Below the pieces are notes generated by a model. It saw nothing but the letters and a program-made list of their open reading frames with translations. It was not told where the DNA came from and made no database searches. From Chloroflexota bacterium (GTDB lineage Bacteria > Chloroflexota > Dehalococcoidia > Lucifugimonadales > UBA2985): DNA of 64,000 nucleotides. The DNA is taken from positions 62,001-126,000 of the forward strand of contig JAPPHY010000007.1 of the NCBI GenBank assembly GCA_028877205.1, in the 5' to 3' direction. The position numbers were made by a program, and so were the translations under genes. Positions 36,939 through 62,525 of this stretch are shown here, piece by piece (position 1 is the first letter of the stretch; the number at the start of each line of letters is the position of its first letter).

Positions 36939-39875
36939 TTACGCCCCGGCCTCCACCTTGACCCTGGCCTTCGCTTTGGCCCTGCTCTTGGACTTCACCC
37001 TGCCGTTGGTCTTTGCCCCGTTCTCCTTCGCCAGCACACCCCGCAGGTAGCGGCCCGTATGCGACTCCTCCCACTCCGCAACCTCCTCCGGCGTACCAGC
37101 CACGATCACCTCACCGCCGCGCTCGCCCGCGCCCGGCCCGAGGTCTACGACCCAGTCGGCGTTCTTGATCAGGTCCAGGTGATGCTCGATGAGGACGACA
37201 GTGTTGCCAGCGTCCACCAGCCGGTGCAGCACGCCGAGCAGGGCGGCGCAGTCCTGGAACGACAGGCCGGTGGTCGGCTCGTCCAAGATGTAGAGAGTCT
37301 TGCCCGTGGCCCGGCGGGACAGCTCTGTGGCCAGCTTCACGCGCTGCGCCTCGCCGCCGCTGAGCGTGGTTGCCGGCTGGCCCAGTCGGATGTAGCCTAG
37401 GCCCACGTCCTTCAGCGTCTCCAGCTTGGAGCGCACGCGAGGGAAGTTCCAGAAGAACTCCAGCGCCTCCGAGACGGTCATGTCCAGAACCTCGGAGATG
37501 TTCTTGTCCTTGAGAGTAATCTCCAGGGCCTCGCGATTGTACCTCTGCCCGTGGCACACCTCGCACGGCATGGTCACGTTGGGCAGGAACTGCATTTCGA
37601 TCTGGATGTAGCCTGCGCCGGTGCACGCCTCGCACCGACCGCCCTTGACGTTGAACGAGAACCGGCCCGGCATGTAGCCGCGCACGCGTGACTCCGGCAC
37701 GGCGGCGAAGATCTCGCGCACGGGCGTGAACATTCCCGTGTATGTGGCTGGGTTGCTGCGCGGCGTCCGGCCTATGGGCGACTGGTCTATGTTCACCACC
37801 TTGTCTATGTTCTCAATGCCGTAGACCCCGTCGCTCACGCCCGGCCTGTCCCTTGCTCCGTAGAGCATCTGCGCCAGGCGCTTGTACAGCACCTCGTAGA
37901 TCAGGCTGCTCTTGCCGGAACCGGACACTCCGGTGATGCACACCAGCATCCCTGTGGGCAGTGTCACGTCTATGTTCTTGAGGTTGTTCTCCCGGGCACC
38001 CCTGACCACCAGCTCACCGCCGTTACCGAGGCGGCGCGACTCCGGCAGCGGTATCTTGAGCCGGCCGCTCAGGTACCGGCCCGTGATCGAGACATCGTGG
38101 CCGGACACCTCTTCGACTGTGCCGGTCGCCACCACGTGACCGCCGTGCTCGCCTGCGCCCGGCCCCAGGTCGATGATGTGGTCGGCGGCGCGCATGATCG
38201 CCTCGTCATGCTCCACGATGATGACGGTGTTGCCGATGTCGCGAAGGCGCTTCAGCGTGTCGATGAGAAGGTGGTCGTCGACGGGGTGGAGGCCTACGCT
38301 AGGCTCGTCGCACACGTAGAGCACTCCCATCAGGCCGGAGCCGATCTGCGTGGCGAGCCGGATGCGCTGCGCCTCACCGCCGCTGAGCGTGGACGCCGTG
38401 CGGTCCAGTGTCAGGTAGTCCAGCCCTACGTCCTTGAGGAACCGCAGGCGGGCGTGAATCTCCCTAAGGATCTGCCTGGCGATGGTGCTTTCGCGCTGGT
38501 TCAGGGGCGACTCACCGCCGTCGCCGTCCAGCCACTCGACCCACTCGATAGACTGGCCGATGGTGGCAGACGTCATCTGTATGATGTTCCGGTCGGCCAC
38601 GGTGACCGCCAGCGACTGGGGCTTGAGACGCTTGCCGTTGCAGTCGGCGCACGGACGGGCAGCCATGTACCGCTCGATCTCCTGGCGCATGTAGTCGGAT
38701 GCCGTCTCGCGGTAGCGTCGCTCCAGGTTGGGGATCACACCCTCGAACCTGGTGTCCCACGTGTACACGCGGCCCCGGTGCGTGCGGTGTCGCATCTTCA
38801 CCACCTTGCCGCGGTTGCCGTACAGAATCAGGTCAACGTGCTCCTGCTTCAGGTCACGCACCCTGTCCTTGACCGAGAACCCATACGCCTCGGAAAGCGA
38901 CCTCAACAGGCTCGCAAACCACGGGTTGGCCGTCCCGGCACGGGACCAGGGAACTACCGCGCCCGCTTCCAGGGTCGAGTCTTTGTTAGGCATGACCAGG
39001 TCGGGGTCGATCTCCAGCCGGTAGCCGAGGCCAGTGCAGGTGGGGCAGGCTCCGTGCGGGCTGTTGAAGGAGAATGTGCGAGGCTCTATCTCGCCCAGGC
39101 TCACGCCGCAGTGCAGACAGGCGAACCGCTCGGAGAAGAGCAGCTCCTCGCCGTCCACCACCGAGACCTGCACCACGCCGTTGCCCAGGCCGATGGCCTG
39201 CTCCACGGAGTCGGTGAAGCGGTTGACGTCGGCGTCATCACCGACCACCAGCCTGTCCACCACTACCTCGATGGTGTGCCACTTCTGTCTGTCCAGGACG
39301 ATGCTCTCCGACAGGTCGCGTATCTCGCCGTTGACGCGCGCCCTCACGTATCCGGCGGAGCGTGCGTCCTCCAGTATATCCTTGTGCTCCCCCTTGCGTC
39401 GGACCACAAGCGGCGCCATCACCATGATGCGGCTTTCGCCCGGCAGGGACATGATGGCGTCCACGATCTGCTGCACGGTCTGTCGCTCGACGGGCCTGCC
39501 GCACTGGTGGCAGTGGGGACGGCCGGCGCGGGCGTAGAGGAGGCGCAGGTAGTCGTAGATCTCGGTGACGGTGCCCACCGTGGAGCGCGGGTTGTGGGAG
39601 ACGCCCTTCTGGTCTATGGATATCGCCGGGGAGAGGCCCTCGATGTACTCCACGTCGGGCTTCTCCATGAGGCCGAGGAACTGGCGCGCGTACGCGGAGA
39701 GGGACTCTACGTAGCGGCGCTGCCCCTCCGCGTATATGGTGTCGAACGCCAGGGAGCTCTTGCCGGAGCCGGACACGCCGGTGATGACGACGAGCCGGTT
39801 CCGGGGGATGGAGACATCGATGTTCTTGAGGTTGTGCTCCCGTGCGCCCTTGACTACGATGCTGTCCTGAGACAT
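36939..39875 (-). CDS. uvrA: Excinuclease ABC subunit A
   Basis: [61 protein letters not shown]; two ABC halves and zinc motifs. Confidence 0.98.
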
Positions 39876-40133
39876 GGCGTCCTTTGCTCTCGAATGTACC
39901 GAATGGGCCAAGGGCTATTCTACCACCGCGGAGGGGTGTGAGGGCAGGGTGTTTGGACTAAATTGAAGACCGACCCCTAGCTTTAGCGAGCACGCGCTCC
40001 GTGAAGGGGACAGTTCGGGATCGGCCTGCATCCAAGCTCAGGATACGCCGACGCTATGTACTGGCCAATGCCCTAGAGACGTGTGGGAAATGCGTTGCAC
40101 ATGCCCACATCTCCCCACCAAAACCCCGCGCGT

Positions 40134-55387: not shown

Positions 55388-56404
55388 ATGGCAAGAGTAA
55401 CCGTTGTGGGCACCACCAGCTGGGGGACTTCGCTGGCCATCCTCCTGGCCAACAACGGCTCCGACGTGACGCTGTGGGCGCGAACGGCGGAGGAGGCCAA
55501 CGCGCTTGAGCAGGCGCGCGAGAACCCTCGCCTGCCGCCCGGCTCGACGTTCCCGACCGGCCTGCGAGTCACGGCGTCGCTCTCGGAGGCCGCGCCCGAC
55601 GCCGACATGGTGGCCGTGTCGGTGCCGTCCAGAACCCTGAGAGAGAACTTGCGCAAGCTGCGCCCGCATCTGAGCAATAGCTCGATGGTCCTGAGCGCCA
55701 CCAAGGGGCTGGAGATCGAGTCCGCACGGCGCATGAGCGAAGTGATGGAGGAGGAGCTGCCAGAGCCTCTCCACGATCGCATCGCCGTGCTGTCCGGCCC
55801 CAACCTGGCGCGGGAGATAGTCCGCGGCATGCCGGCGTCAACGGTCATCGCCTCACGCAACGAGGAGGTCGCACTGAGGGCGCAGGAGCTGTTCATGTCG
55901 CCCGTGTTCAGGGTGTACACCAACGCGGACGTGGTTGGCGTGGAGCTTGGCGGGGCGCTGAAGAACATCATCGCACTGGGCGCGGGTATCTGCGACGGCC
56001 TGGACTACGGCGACAACGGGAAGGCGGCCTTCATCACCCGCGGGCTGGTGGAGATGACGCGGCTGTCCGTGGCCGCGGGCGCCAACCCGCTTACGCTGGC
56101 CGGGCTGGCGGGCCTGGGCGACCTGGTGGCCACCTGTTCGAGCCCGCTGAGCCGGAACCGGTACGTCGGCGAGCAGCTTGCGGCGGGCCTGACGCTCGAC
56201 GACGTGCTGTCCTCGATGCAGAACGTGGCGGAGGGCGTCGACACGACTCGGGCGGCGCTCACGCTGGCTGCGCGGCTGGGCGTGGACATGCCGCTCACAG
56301 AGGCGATCAGCGGCGTGCTGTTCCGCGGCGTGGAGCCTCGCGCGGCGGTTGCAGAGCTGATGGGCCGCGCGCCGCGCTCGGAGTGGGCGGGGCTGGAGGG
56401 GTAG
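55388..56404 (+). CDS. gpsA: Glycerol-3-phosphate dehydrogenase (NAD(P)+)
   Basis: TSWGTSLAILLANNGSDVTLWART...VLSGPNLAREIVRGMP...GALKNIIALGAGICDGLDYGDNGKAAFITRGLVEM. Confidence 0.96.
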   Translation: MARVTVVGTTSWGTSLAILLANNGSDVTLWARTAEEANALEQARENPRLPPGSTFPTGLRVTASLSEAAPDADMVAVSVPSRTLRENLRKLRPHLSNSSMVLSATKGLEIESARRMSEVMEEELPEPLHDRIAVLSGPNLAREIVRGMPASTVIASRNEEVALRAQELFMSPVFRVYTNADVVGVELGGALKNIIALGAGICDGLDYGDNGKAAFITRGLVEMTRLSVAAGANPLTLAGLAGLGDLVATCSSPLSRNRYVGEQLAAGLTLDDVLSSMQNVAEGVDTTRAALTLAARLGVDMPLTEAISGVLFRGVEPRAAVAELMGRAPRSEWAGLEG

Positions 56405-56405
56405 G
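56322..56405 (+). repeat. Direct repeat copy 1 (gpsA 3' end)
   Basis: 79/84 nt identical to 57985-58068. Confidence 0.9.
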
Positions 56406-56419
56406 GGGAAGTCGAAGTA

Positions 56420-57946
56420 GTGCAACGCTCAAGCCTGTGTTTATCGCTACTGCTGGTGGGCGCGTTGGGCGCGTTCTTCACGGCCTGCGACGCCCAATCA
56501 CCTACGGCTACGTTACAAGCTACACCCACAGACACACCGATATCGACTCCAACACACGCGACTTTGCCTGCACCTTCACCTACCCCAATCAGTATTCCAA
56601 AGCCTTCTCCCAGCGACATTGAGGCATGTTCCAATGGCCTCGCTGTGCGCAACCCTAGTGAAAGCCCCGACTTAGTCAGAGACTGCGCGATTCTGTTGGG
56701 AGCCCGGGATATTCTTGTGGGAGAGACGTCTCCGGGTTACGTGTCATGGGACTTGAATTGGAGCCCTCACATTCACATCGAGGATTGGGAAGGGATCCAT
56801 ATCGCTGGCGGACGGGTCAATGGCATAGAACTCGTCTCACATGAGGTGACGTCTAGCGACATATCAGATGGGAAGCCTCACATTCACATCGCAAATTGGG
56901 ATGGGAGCCAATTCGCTGGGGGACGCGTCAGTGGCACAAGACTTGTTTCACATGACGTGACAGTCAGTAACCCTCCCCAATGGGTCTATCTCGCCGGGAG
57001 CATCCCGCCGTTGCTGGGAGGACTTACTGCCCTGCAAGAACTGAACCTCTGCAACAACGCGCTCACAGGAGAAATACCAGCCCCCCTGGGAAACCTCTCC
57101 TATCTAGAGCGGTTGTATCTGTGCGGCAACGATCTCACCGGAGAAATTCCATCCTCCTTGGGCAACCTCTCCAGGCTAAAGGTATTCGATTTGACGAACA
57201 ATGAGCTGGAAGGCGAGATCCCCATATTCATAAGCACCCTAACCGGCCTGCGAGATCTCTCACTTGCGCACAACAATTTCACTGGGGAGATTCCCAATTC
57301 CTTGAGTAACCTCGAAGGCCTTCATTCTCTCAGCCTTGGCAACAACCAACTTACGGGCGAGATTCCAGCTTCCCTAGGTAGCCTTGCCGGTTTGGAAAGC
57401 CTTTACCTACGCGGCAACAAACTTACGGGAGAGATTCCCTCTTCAGTTGGCAACCACCCAAAGCTGAAATGGCTCAACCTTGAAGATAATCTTCTCACTG
57501 GAGAGATACCCTTTTCCATCGGGGGCCTCAGCAGCCTAAGTGACCTGGCCTTAGGCAACAACCGACTCTCCGGCGAGATACCCGCTTCCTTGGGCAATCT
57601 TTCCAATCTGAGTTTTCTCAAGTTGGACAGCAACCTACTGACTGGAGAGATTCCTTATTCCCTGGGGAACCTAGTTAGCCTAGTGCGCTTGGACTTAGAC
57701 AGGAACCAGCTCTCAGGGGAGATTCCATCTTCACTTGGCAACCTCACTGAACTTTGGCATTTGCACCTCTATCGCAACTCTCTGACTGGCGAGATACCGA
57801 CCGGGCTTGCTGCACTGAACCGGCTGCGAGAAGTCAACATTGCCTACAACAACCTGAGCGGCTGTATTGCGGAGGAGTTTCCGGACATTTGGGTGACGGG
57901 AAGCGGACTCCCGCGTTGCAACCGGGGAGTAGAGGCCACACCATGA
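56420..57946 (+). CDS. Leucine-rich repeat lipoprotein (plant-type LxGEIPxxLGNL repeats)
   Basis: FFTACDAQ lipobox; about 12 repeats of the form LxxLxLxxNxLTGEIPxSLGN. Confidence 0.93.
   Translation: MQRSSLCLSLLLVGALGAFFTACDAQSPTATLQATPTDTPISTPTHATLPAPSPTPISIPKPSPSDIEACSNGLAVRNPSESPDLVRDCAILLGARDILVGETSPGYVSWDLNWSPHIHIEDWEGIHIAGGRVNGIELVSHEVTSSDISDGKPHIHIANWDGSQFAGGRVSGTRLVSHDVTVSNPPQWVYLAGSIPPLLGGLTALQELNLCNNALTGEIPAPLGNLSYLERLYLCGNDLTGEIPSSLGNLSRLKVFDLTNNELEGEIPIFISTLTGLRDLSLAHNNFTGEIPNSLSNLEGLHSLSLGNNQLTGEIPASLGSLAGLESLYLRGNKLTGEIPSSVGNHPKLKWLNLEDNLLTGEIPFSIGGLSSLSDLALGNNRLSGEIPASLGNLSNLSFLKLDSNLLTGEIPYSLGNLVSLVRLDLDRNQLSGEIPSSLGNLTELWHLHLYRNSLTGEIPTGLAALNRLREVNIAYNNLSGCIAEEFPDIWVTGSGLPRCNRGVEATP
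56765..56962 (+). repeat. In-frame 111-nt tandem duplication within the LRR gene
   Basis: PHIHIEDWEGIHIAGGRVNGIELVSHEVT / PHIHIANWDGSQFAGGRVSGTRLVSHDVT. Confidence 0.85.
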
Positions 57947-57984
57947 GTATCAAAATACCAAGGCCTGTTGGAAACCTAGGCATG

Positions 57985-58068
57985 TCCGCGGCGTGGAGCC
58001 TCGCGCGGCGTTGGCCGGGCTGATGGGCCGCGCGCCGCGCTCGGAGTGGGTGGGGCTGGAGGGGTAGG
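57985..58068 (+). pseudogene. Direct repeat copy 2: detached gpsA 3' end
   Basis: Reads RGVEPRAALAGLMGRAPRSEWVGLEG* against gpsA RGVEPRAAVAELMGRAPRSEWAGLEG*. Confidence 0.9.
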
Positions 58069-58124
58069 AGGGCGGGGTAAGGTCAACAACAATTGGCCCG
58101 CTCTACGTTCTCAAGCCCTGACCA

Positions 58125-59033
58125 TCACTTCCAAATGTCTAAGTCCTTCCAGCCAGGGATAAACCCCATCCGGTCTATAGGGATACTCTTGTACTGATCC
58201 ATTAGACCTACAAGATGCAGTTGCCACTCGTTGCTGTTCGTTATGACTCTCGCCAAATGAGCCATCATCACAAGGGAATTGTAGAGCTTCACGTTGTTTT
58301 GTCTATTGAAGAATGATCTTGGATCCTTGAATGTCCCCATCCTCTTGGGCACAGTGAGCTTTGTTATGAACTCCCTGTCCCACAGTCGCTCATGATGAGC
58401 ACAAATATTGCGAATTGGTGCTAGATGGCGCAAAAGAGTTCGAAGTATCCGCTCATCGATCTGGTAGTGCCGTGCGACGAGCTGTCTCACCGGTTTGTTG
58501 GTGTCGCCATACCAGCGCGACAGGAGGCCGAATGACATTACCTCCGCGACCACCCAAGTCGGACAGTTAGCAAATTGGTAGTGGTGCATACGATTCCCGT
58601 GTTGCTGATAGTCTCTGGACAGAGTAGCCAAGTTCACATAATAGTCTTTCGAAAATAGCTGTGGGTCAAAGTGAGACAGTTCGCCTCCCTGTTGGGTATA
58701 CGCCAAGTGATAGGTCCACTGGGTGCGAATTGACACTTCAATGTGATTGAACGCTTCAAGCAGCAAGATACGTAGCTTTCTGTCGAAATCATATCTCTCG
58801 ATCACGTTCTCGAAGGACGTGTTCGCCAAGAAGGCGTGCGAGTTACTGCTCGCTGTGTGGTCTACGAAAGGTTCCAAGTATCCCCGTAGGCGGTAGAAGC
58901 CAACGTTGCTTAGGAACTGGGAGGCCATACCAAGATCCGCAAACAACATACCTCGCTGCTTCAGCCGGGTGATCTGGTCGCTGATTGAAGTGGGAGGACC
59001 TGGGGGGCTTGGAGTAGGTTGGGTAGCAGTCAT
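58125..59033 (-). CDS. Abi family (Abi_2, AbiD/AbiF-like) protein
   Basis: ITRLKQRGMLFADLGMASQFLSNVGFYRLRGYLEPF...YDFDRKLRILLLEAFNHIEVSIRTQ; HEPN-like RNICAHHERLW. Confidence 0.92.
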   Translation of the reverse strand: MTATQPTPSPPGPPTSISDQITRLKQRGMLFADLGMASQFLSNVGFYRLRGYLEPFVDHTASSNSHAFLANTSFENVIERYDFDRKLRILLLEAFNHIEVSIRTQWTYHLAYTQQGGELSHFDPQLFSKDYYVNLATLSRDYQQHGNRMHHYQFANCPTWVVAEVMSFGLLSRWYGDTNKPVRQLVARHYQIDERILRTLLRHLAPIRNICAHHERLWDREFITKLTVPKRMGTFKDPRSFFNRQNNVKLYNSLVMMAHLARVITNSNEWQLHLVGLMDQYKSIPIDRMGFIPGWKDLDIWK

Positions 59034-59054
59034 TTACAGGTTCACAAAATCAAA

Positions 59055-59094
59055 ACCCCTCTGGTGCGCCGTTCCAATGAGAGGCGTGAGGGGT
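59055..59094 (-). ncRNA. Candidate structured RNA in the Abi leader
   Basis: Minus strand ACCCCTC-ACGCC-...-GGCG-CACCA-GAGGGGT then TTTGATTTT; 7-bp outer stem and inner GCC/GGC pairing. Confidence 0.5.
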
Positions 59095-59106
59095 ATCGTC
59101 ACTTGA

Positions 59107-59134
59107 ATTCTATCACAGGAATTCGCAGTGTCAA
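59107..59134 (-). promoter_or_regulatory. Sigma70-like promoter TTGACA-N16-TAGAAT upstream of the Abi leader RNA
   Basis: Plus-strand TGTCAA 59129-59134, ATTCTA 59107-59112. Confidence 0.7.
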
Positions 59135-59208
59135 GATTATGTAGTCCTTTAGTAACACACAGCGGGATACACGCCTAGGCTAGACGCGGTCCGGCTGTAC
59201 GTTGCACC

Positions 59209-59436
59209 CTACCGCCCAAACAACGCCCGTACTCGCGCCCACAGTGACTTCGGGCGGGGTTCCGGCATGGAGGAGCGGCGCTCGCCTTCCTCGCGCATCT
59301 GGGCAGCCGTCATCTCGCCAGCCGGCCGCCGCGACGGGCCTTTCGCGCCAAACAGCGCCCTAGCGTCGTTACCGCGCCCCCGGCGCTGCAGGCTGTCCGC
59401 GGCCCTAGACTTCCACTCTCCGCCTCCTCCCGGCAT
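59209..59436 (-). CDS. Small hypothetical protein
   Basis: MMPGGGGEWKSRAADSLQRRGRGN...SLWARVRALFGR; no recognised family. Confidence 0.35.
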   Translation of the reverse strand: MPGGGGEWKSRAADSLQRRGRGNDARALFGAKGPSRRPAGEMTAAQMREEGERRSSMPEPRPKSLWARVRALFGR

Positions 59437-59595
59437 CATGGCACACCTCCCTAGAGAAGCTCTTAACAGCATAACATAATGTAGGCGTATTTACAATTTG
59501 CTCGGCCGGTCAGGCACGCTTAGGATTTGGAGTAGAGACCACGGCGGCGGCGGCCGTCGAAGTGGGAAGAACACCGGCCGCAACCCTCCGGCTCG

Positions 59596-59624
59596 TTGAC
59601 AGACCACGGCACGTAACCTATGGT
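59596..59624 (+). promoter_or_regulatory. Sigma70-like promoter TTGACA-N17-TATGGT
   Basis: Upstream of the GNAT gene; TTGACA 59596-59601, TATGGT 59619-59624. Confidence 0.55.
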
Positions 59625-59666
59625 GAGTGGTAGCCCGGCGGCCCCTTGAACCCGGGGAGTGAGTGC

Positions 59667-60092
59667 ATGGCAGAGCTAGAGATCAGACCTTTCCGGGAAT
59701 CCGACCAGGACGCCGTCGTGAGTCTATGGGTGGAGTGCGGCTTGGTAGTGCCCTGGAACGATCCCGTGAAGGACATCAATCGGAAGCTCACCACACAGCG
59801 AGAGCTGTTTCTGGTTGGGACCATCGGTTCCAGACTGGTCGCGTCCGTTATGGCCGGCTACGACGGCCACCGCGGCTGGATCAACTACTTGGGCGTCGCC
59901 CCTGACTGTCAACAGCTGGGCTTCGGACGCCGCATGATGGACGAGGCGGAGGCACGGCTAAGGGAGCTCGGTTGCGCGAAGATTCAGCTGCAGGTCAGAA
60001 ACACGAACCCCGGTGCGGTTGGGTTCTACTGGACTATCGGGTACTCTGTGGACAATGTCATCAGCATGGGTAAGCGGCTTGAAGAAGACTGA
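59667..60092 (+). CDS. GNAT acetyltransferase (YpeA-like)
   Basis: LEIRPFRESDQDAVVSLWVECGL...INYLGVAPDCQQLGFGRRMMDEAEARLRELGCAKIQLQVR. Confidence 0.88.
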   Translation: MAELEIRPFRESDQDAVVSLWVECGLVVPWNDPVKDINRKLTTQRELFLVGTIGSRLVASVMAGYDGHRGWINYLGVAPDCQQLGFGRRMMDEAEARLRELGCAKIQLQVRNTNPGAVGFYWTIGYSVDNVISMGKRLEED

Positions 60093-60136
60093 CATGCCGC
60101 ATACAGCTTAGGATTGTTGCAAGAGCCCGCGGCTTG

Positions 60137-60165
60137 TTGACAAGCCTTCGCTTGTGGCCTATATT
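60137..60165 (+). promoter_or_regulatory. Sigma70-like promoter TTGACA-N17-TATATT
   Basis: Upstream of the M16 peptidase; TTGACA 60137-60142, TATATT 60160-60165. Confidence 0.65.
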
Positions 60166-61500: not shown

Positions 61501-62316
61501 CTACGACTGGTTCGATGTTACTGTTGTCTGCCCATCCCCGCGGATGGCGATTATCACCGACTCCAGCCATCCTATGAGGGTAGCCAGTTGAGATTCATCC
61601 AGACTGTGCTCCGTTCGACACGCGAGCTCGCCAATCCCGCCTATGGGAACGAAGAGACCCGTACTTAGGGCATCGCTTCTGAGGGACTCGATGACCTCTT
61701 CGGGAACGTTGGTCTTCCTGCGAAGCATCTTGAAGTCCGTGTAGATGTCCTGATTGTACTTGGCGGGCGGATAGCCCGTGCAGACCGTCACTTTCTCGCC
61801 GTTGGAGTTAAGCCTGAGCGAAAAGCCTGACCTGCCCCAATAGACACCCATTCCGTTTCGCATACCAAGCTCAAGAACCTTCTCGTAGACTGCTCTCGCG
61901 CTTTCGTTCAATGCCCGCAGGAAGTCCGTCTCGTTGGCGCGAATCTGGTTGCGCTTGAATTCCTCGGCTGCTTGGCTGTCCTCCGGCTGAAGCGCAGCTG
62001 TCTGCTCGATGACGCCCGGCGTCACGTCAACACCAGGCATGACCTGAAGCACAGCCTCAACTTGCTCTGACTCAATCTGAAAGAACTCACGATATGGGTG
62101 TACTCTGTTCGGGCCGAAGGCAATGTGTAGCGCATTCTCGACCTGAGACGCTTCTATGCCCTCAAGCTGGCGCGCTATTGTGCACTCAAATGGTAGCGGC
62201 ACACCCGTGGAGAAGAGCTCGGCCATCCTGGGTTGTACGTCATTCCTCTGGGTCAGGCCGATCTTCACGATCCCAGGCATCGCCGGGTTGGTGAGCACGT
62301 ACACAATGTTGGGCAT
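61501..62316 (-). CDS. T5orf172/GIY-YIG-like domain protein
   Basis: MPNIVYVLTNPAMPGIVKIGLTQRNDVQPRMAELFSTGVPLPFECTIA. Confidence 0.8.
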   Translation of the reverse strand: MPNIVYVLTNPAMPGIVKIGLTQRNDVQPRMAELFSTGVPLPFECTIARQLEGIEASQVENALHIAFGPNRVHPYREFFQIESEQVEAVLQVMPGVDVTPGVIEQTAALQPEDSQAAEEFKRNQIRANETDFLRALNESARAVYEKVLELGMRNGMGVYWGRSGFSLRLNSNGEKVTVCTGYPPAKYNQDIYTDFKMLRRKTNVPEEVIESLRSDALSTGLFVPIGGIGELACRTEHSLDESQLATLIGWLESVIIAIRGDGQTTVTSNQS

Positions 62317-62525
62317 AGTCCTTCCTCCTGCCTGACCTAGAACGTCTTCCCAATAGTTGTACCACCTCCTGCACAAGCGGCACAAGCGACAAATCGTAAC
62401 CGGAGAAGCCCCGGACCGAATCTCCGCTAATGGGTATTGCATTCCCTGTTTAATTGTCGTAAACTAGTTTGTGTTACAAACTCGACGGGCAATTCAAGAC
62501 CCGGACAATGCCAAGGAGGTGCGAC

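Follow-up and report, generated by a model that had tools for sequence, protein, structure and literature searches.

The 64-kb stretch of DNA analysed here (the window; coordinates are positions in it unless a locus code such as L011 or G001 is given) carries a gene encoding a full-length AbiD/AbiF (Abi_2) HEPN protein, and the comparison of homologous leader sequences confirms that the hairpin preceding this gene is a genuine abiF RNA (RF03085), scoring below the Rfam threshold. By homology with relatives that have been studied experimentally, the locus very likely represents an AbiF-type toxin-antitoxin module (type III). The window system is in that sense a previously unlisted, sub-threshold abiF member whose mechanism has already been worked out in relatives (features in Table 1).

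Table 1. The abiF locus and its surroundings in the window
Feature	Positions	Strand	Basis
abiF (Abi_2/AbiD-F family) HEPN ribonuclease toxin gene, 302 aa	58125..59033	-	Pfam, PADLOC, 8vz6 match, predicted fold
HEPN catalytic motif RNICAHH, residues 208-214	58392..58412	-	homologue alignment, PbAbiF alignment
-35 element TTGACA	59129..59134	-	consensus match
-10 element TAGAAT	59107..59112	-	consensus match
abiF RNA hairpin (RF03085-type)	59055..59094	-	Rfam match, model R1, covariation
U-rich tract TTTTGATTTT immediately 3' of hairpin	59046..59055	-	sequence
Accessory insert, gpsA to M16 peptidase gene	56409..60153		comparison with G004, G001
Second copy of gpsA 3' end	57985..58071	+	87 nt, 93% identical to 56322-56408; also by protein search
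Leucine-rich-repeat (LRR) gene, 508 aa	56420-57946		between the gpsA 3'-end copies

The initial annotation had described an AbiD/AbiF-like protein with an RNICAH motif of HEPN ribonucleases, and the evidence on the protein agrees with this. The 302-aa product matches the Pfam family Abi_2 (PF07751) over the whole profile (positions 1-184 of 184; E 9e-45, 153.7 bits against a cut-off of 25.6), is matched by PADLOC to AbiD (E 1e-59), and aligns over residues 11-301 with PbAbiF in the cryo-EM structure 8VZ6 (E 3e-34). When its AlphaFold2 model, computed from 40 homologues (pLDDT 93.8), is compared with the PDB by Foldseek, 8vz6_A is the only significant match (E 1.5e-17, TM 0.81/0.83), with 24% identity in the structural alignment. 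Residues R208, N209, H213 and H214 show no variation across 40 aligned homologues, and R208/H213 fall on R210/H215 of PbAbiF, whose double mutant is reported to be inactive (PMC12373285).

The same annotation placed a TTGACA-N16-TAGAAT promoter and a hairpin (ACCCCTC...GAGGGGT) in the leader. The promoter is indeed present at 59134-59107, with 11 of 12 consensus letters, where shuffles of the leader region yield 0.1 promoter-like sites on average; L011, L012 and L013 likewise have TTGAC elements, some 40 nt before the hairpin, and no second promoter-like site was found between the leader promoter and abiF on the minus strand. Transcription is predicted to start at about 59100, so that the RNA would begin some 6 nt before the hairpin. 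In the latter, ACCCCTC (59094-59088) pairs with GAGGGGT (59061-59055) to form an outer stem, inside which lie an unpaired A, an inner stem CGCC/GGCG enclosing an apical loop of 12 nt that opens with UCUC, and a bulge CACCA. The hairpin is followed by UUUUGAUUUU, in which the U run is interrupted, and then by the start codon at 59033, the hairpin and the Abi_2 gene lying on the same strand with a spacing of 21 nt. The U-tract probably makes the hairpin RNA an intrinsic terminator or attenuator, to judge from the sequence; a simple terminator scan of the leader found no terminator, the loop being longer than such a scan accommodates. Folding of the single sequence is unremarkable (z -1.57, with 15 of 200 shuffles folding equally well), and for this reason thermodynamics is not used here as evidence and the claim is carried by comparative data. 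An 87-aa ORF upstream on the same strand (59209-59472) was considered as a third component and rejected, having no family match and no convincing relative in 60 genomes.

The proposal that this hairpin is a divergent abiF RNA can be evaluated with covariance models. The Rfam abiF model (RF03085) matches 59093-59055 with 28.9 bits, which is the best Rfam match at the leader hairpin and the only match of this model across the 2-Mb genome (E 0.003), but fails the gathering cut-off of 37 bits, a threshold that reflects curation and not a structural feature. Since L011-L014 and L054, which are undoubted relatives, also fall under 37 bits, the threshold excludes a whole branch and not the window sequence alone; of 20 diverse loci tested, it passes 10 and misses 10. 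We chose 80 homologous loci by protein alignment alone and then read their leaders, which display a near-universal pattern, CCCGCC-A-[C/A]GC-CUCU...GC[G/U]-CA...-GGCGGG-UUUU. An abiF RNA lies directly upstream, on the strand of the gene, in 76 of the 80 (it is absent from L063, L074, L076 and L083), a count in which 50 loci match by construction, having supplied the model. This model, R1, and the underlying alignment, A3, comprise 50 distinct leaders, none of them from Dehalococcoidia (the window and three relatives were left out); R1 nevertheless finds the window hairpin with 41.9 bits genome-wide (E 3.6e-7), the next match having 20.7 bits (E 0.19). The covariance-model search suggested as a check, run with the Rfam model, gives abiF at the leader hairpin and nowhere else in the genome.

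Covariation among homologues, whose absence had been named as grounds for refuting the idea of an abiF RNA, is present in both helices: in A3, both partners vary in 7 of the 10 pairs, 99% of cells are paired (28-50% in controls with the partner shifted by 1-3 columns), and none of 500 shuffles reaches the covariation score of the alignment. The motif finder itself requires pairing, which biases a raw scan; its score of 26 is, however, reached by only 1.5% of shuffled leaders against 94% of real ones, so that the leader pattern is not an effect of the search. Two other alignments were set aside, A2 (MAFFT on bare motifs) because the 3' arm was misplaced in leaders with a 5-nt bulge, A3 with flanks being preferred, and A4 because of the same misplacement. 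Finally, 50 of 54 distinct leaders have at least 7 T in the 12-nt stretch that follows the hairpin; 20 nt further on, none of the 54 does.

Some of these leaders deserve mention for their own sake. In L033, L062 and L071, a single toxin gene is preceded by two tandem copies of the abiF RNA, an arrangement also known from C. difficile RCd22. In three alphaproteobacterial loci (L063, L076 and L083), the Abi_2 gene is preceded by a hairpin of different architecture that the abiF model misses; it has two helices of 9 bp each plus a U-rich tail in L063/L076, and a 9-bp outer stem in L083. This is possibly a second RNA type for the Abi_2 protein family.

If the locus works as its relatives do, the single promoter would make an RNA of about 55-60 nt, essentially the abiF hairpin with a U-tail. 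Most transcripts would end at the hairpin, which would double as an intrinsic terminator, and a minority would read through to give the toxin mRNA. The abundant RNA would bind the AbiF dimer and block the HEPN active site (R208/H213), leaving the cell unharmed; should the supply of RNA fail, for example if a phage shut off host transcription, free AbiF would cut RNA and growth would stop. The phage trigger is conjecture on our part. Toxicity, RNA-protein binding and termination are what we infer for the window system from studied relatives, the evidence in the window itself being the homology of protein and RNA, the gene order, the promoter, the U-tract and the conservation of structure. As far as can be read from the sequence, RNA gene, terminator and toxin gene share one transcription unit. 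Weighing against this model are the Rfam score under the cut-off, the interrupted U run with its negative terminator scan, and the single motif copy. Tandem antitoxin repeats, another hallmark of type III systems, are not seen here, as there is one motif copy only; PbAbiF is reported to bind one RNA per monomer (PMC12373285 and PMC12737573), and for this reason repeats do not appear to be a strict requirement for AbiF. The initial annotation had left the choice between antitoxin, guide and attenuator; homology to RCd22-AbiFCd (PMC12373285) makes a combined antitoxin and attenuator/terminator role the best supported, and nothing supports a guide.

One may ask whether the hairpin is an attenuator (terminator) only, which keeps abiF expression low through an RNA that does not bind the protein. 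The C. difficile leader does lower abiF expression at the transcriptional level (PMC12373285), and the conserved U-tract after the hairpin, which supports the termination half of our proposed mechanism across the family, suits this explanation too. However, a plain terminator needs a stem and a U-run only, yet letters of the inner stem, loop and bulge are conserved across phyla (the inner-stem GC, the U in the loop after the inner stem and the CA at the bulge) and the inner stem covaries. Furthermore, the RNAs of relatives act on the toxin in trans: RCd22 combines premature termination in cis with binding and neutralisation of AbiFCd in trans (PMC12373285), and PbAbiF is bound and inhibited by its ncRNA (review PMC12737573). 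We consider an attenuator without antitoxin function unlikely.

We find it more unlikely still that the module has decayed into a relic with a non-working RNA or protein. The window ORF is intact, matches PbAbiF colinearly throughout and retains every invariant residue, and in the closest relatives (55% protein identity) the hairpin is kept with changed loop letters and an intact stem. It is true that no obvious ribosome-binding site is seen before the abiF start codon, but L011, the closest relative, likewise has none at the same place. Decay of such modules does seem to occur elsewhere: in L007/L057 (Anaerolineales), an apparently intact promoter and a perfect abiF RNA precede an abiF gene whose N-terminal part and frame are gone, that is, an antitoxin RNA has apparently been retained beside a broken toxin. 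As for a guide role, in which the RNA would direct the HEPN nuclease to RNA targets in the manner of a Cas13 crRNA, the proposal that AbiD/F is the ancestor of Cas13 (PMC12165695) invites the idea, to which we give almost no credence, since the 12-nt apical loop leaves no room for a spacer, the RNA is single-copy without an array, and PbAbiF and AbiFCd are reported as non-guided toxin-antitoxin systems (PMC12373285, PMC12737573).

The type III toxin-antitoxin module that we favour lies in an accessory insert of 3.7 kb, comprising the LRR gene, the gpsA 3'-end repeat, abiF with its RNA and a GNAT acetyltransferase gene. In two sister genera, the M16 peptidase gene adjoins gpsA at a distance of about 180 bp (G004) and about 100 bp (G001), which supports the earlier idea of an accessory hotspot; acquisition of the insert is the simplest explanation. 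It had also been stated that abiF lies right next to gpsA, and this has to be corrected, as the LRR gene and the second copy of the gpsA 3' end intervene. That copy suggests a scar or boundary of the accessory insert, and the repetition of the gpsA end points to integration at this end, at least as far as the LRR part is concerned. A gene for a T5orf172/MUG113 (GIY-YIG-like) protein (61501-62442, minus strand), possibly more accessory cargo, neighbours the M16 peptidase gene. Elsewhere in the window, a DUF3800-IX RNA (RF02968; 39963-40027, minus strand; 47 bits, above cut-off, E 4.4e-9 genome-wide) sits about 50 nt upstream of uvrA (36939-39911) and not of a DUF3800 gene, the two DUF3800 genes of this genome being on other contigs, which suggests an orphan or re-used RNA.

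Among 98 genomes searched, abiF is rare, occurring in two related genomes besides its own and in none of four other genera of the same family. A scan of viral contigs with the AbiF protein found no relatives, and there is thus no sign of this branch riding on sequenced viruses. The nearest protein relatives are three Dehalococcoidia loci, L011-L013, with 42-55% identity in a supported clade, and they have in common with the window the inner stem CGCC/GGCG, a bulge opening with CACCA and a promoter-like TTGAC before the hairpin.

The inner stem and the bulge appear to vary together. A C-G pair at the first position of the inner stem goes with C as the third letter of the bulge (CAC-), and an A-U or G-C pair there goes with A (CAA-): 49 leaders, a number inflated by near-copies, combine C-G with C, 20 combine another pair with another letter, and 5 are exceptions. 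The count by branches is independent of near-copies; on the tree of 74 proteins (147 branches), the stem pair switches seven times and the bulge letter six times, four of these on the same branch, as counted by simple parsimony on one tree. We suggest, quite tentatively, that there are two coupled forms of the abiF RNA, reflecting a tertiary contact or a toxin-specificity switch, and that the Dehalococcoidia RNAs, which have an extra inner pair and mostly a 5-nt bulge, are a separate specificity class. If so, the switch would lie within the nuclease-silencing portion of the RNA, and Dehalococcoidia RNAs would not cross-neutralise toxins of the A-U type.

More generally, these findings extend a known RNA-antitoxin system to Dehalococcoidia (Chloroflexota), and also to Rhodobacterales, where it was missed by the Rfam threshold; a better model, based on the 50 sequences of A3, would annotate most of the loci so missed. 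The compact layout, with an antitoxin hairpin that itself carries the U-tract, offers a simple substrate for examining how one element sets both the dose and the silencing of a toxin.

Like RF03085, the window RNA directly precedes an Abi_2 gene, has two stacked helices separated by an unpaired A, begins its loop region with CUCU and carries a 3' bulge starting with CA. It differs in its inner stem (CGCC/GGCG), which has one additional pair and a closing C-G in place of A-U, a C-G form also common among Rhodobacterales and Actinomycetota relatives, and in its 5-nt bulge, CACCA instead of CAAAUC. The RCd22-AbiFCd system of C. difficile phage phi027, an RNA antitoxin with a toxin whose toxicity has been demonstrated (PMC12373285), resembles ours in its SigA-type promoter, short structured abiF-motif RNA, terminator and RN-C-H HEPN toxin. 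RCd22, however, has two motif copies, both of which matter (PMC12373285), and a separate terminator, whereas the window has a single copy, to which the U-tract is directly attached; moreover, the window system belongs to an accessory insert beside gpsA, and no prophage genes are seen adjoining it. Finally, PbAbiF-AbiFr from a Prevotellaceae bacterium (Zilberzwige-Tal et al., as described in PMC12373285 and PMC12737573), whose structure 8VZ6 was solved with its RNA and is reported to have bulge contacts at C32 and U38, is homologous to the window system over the full length of the protein, with the same predicted fold and equivalent catalytic residues.
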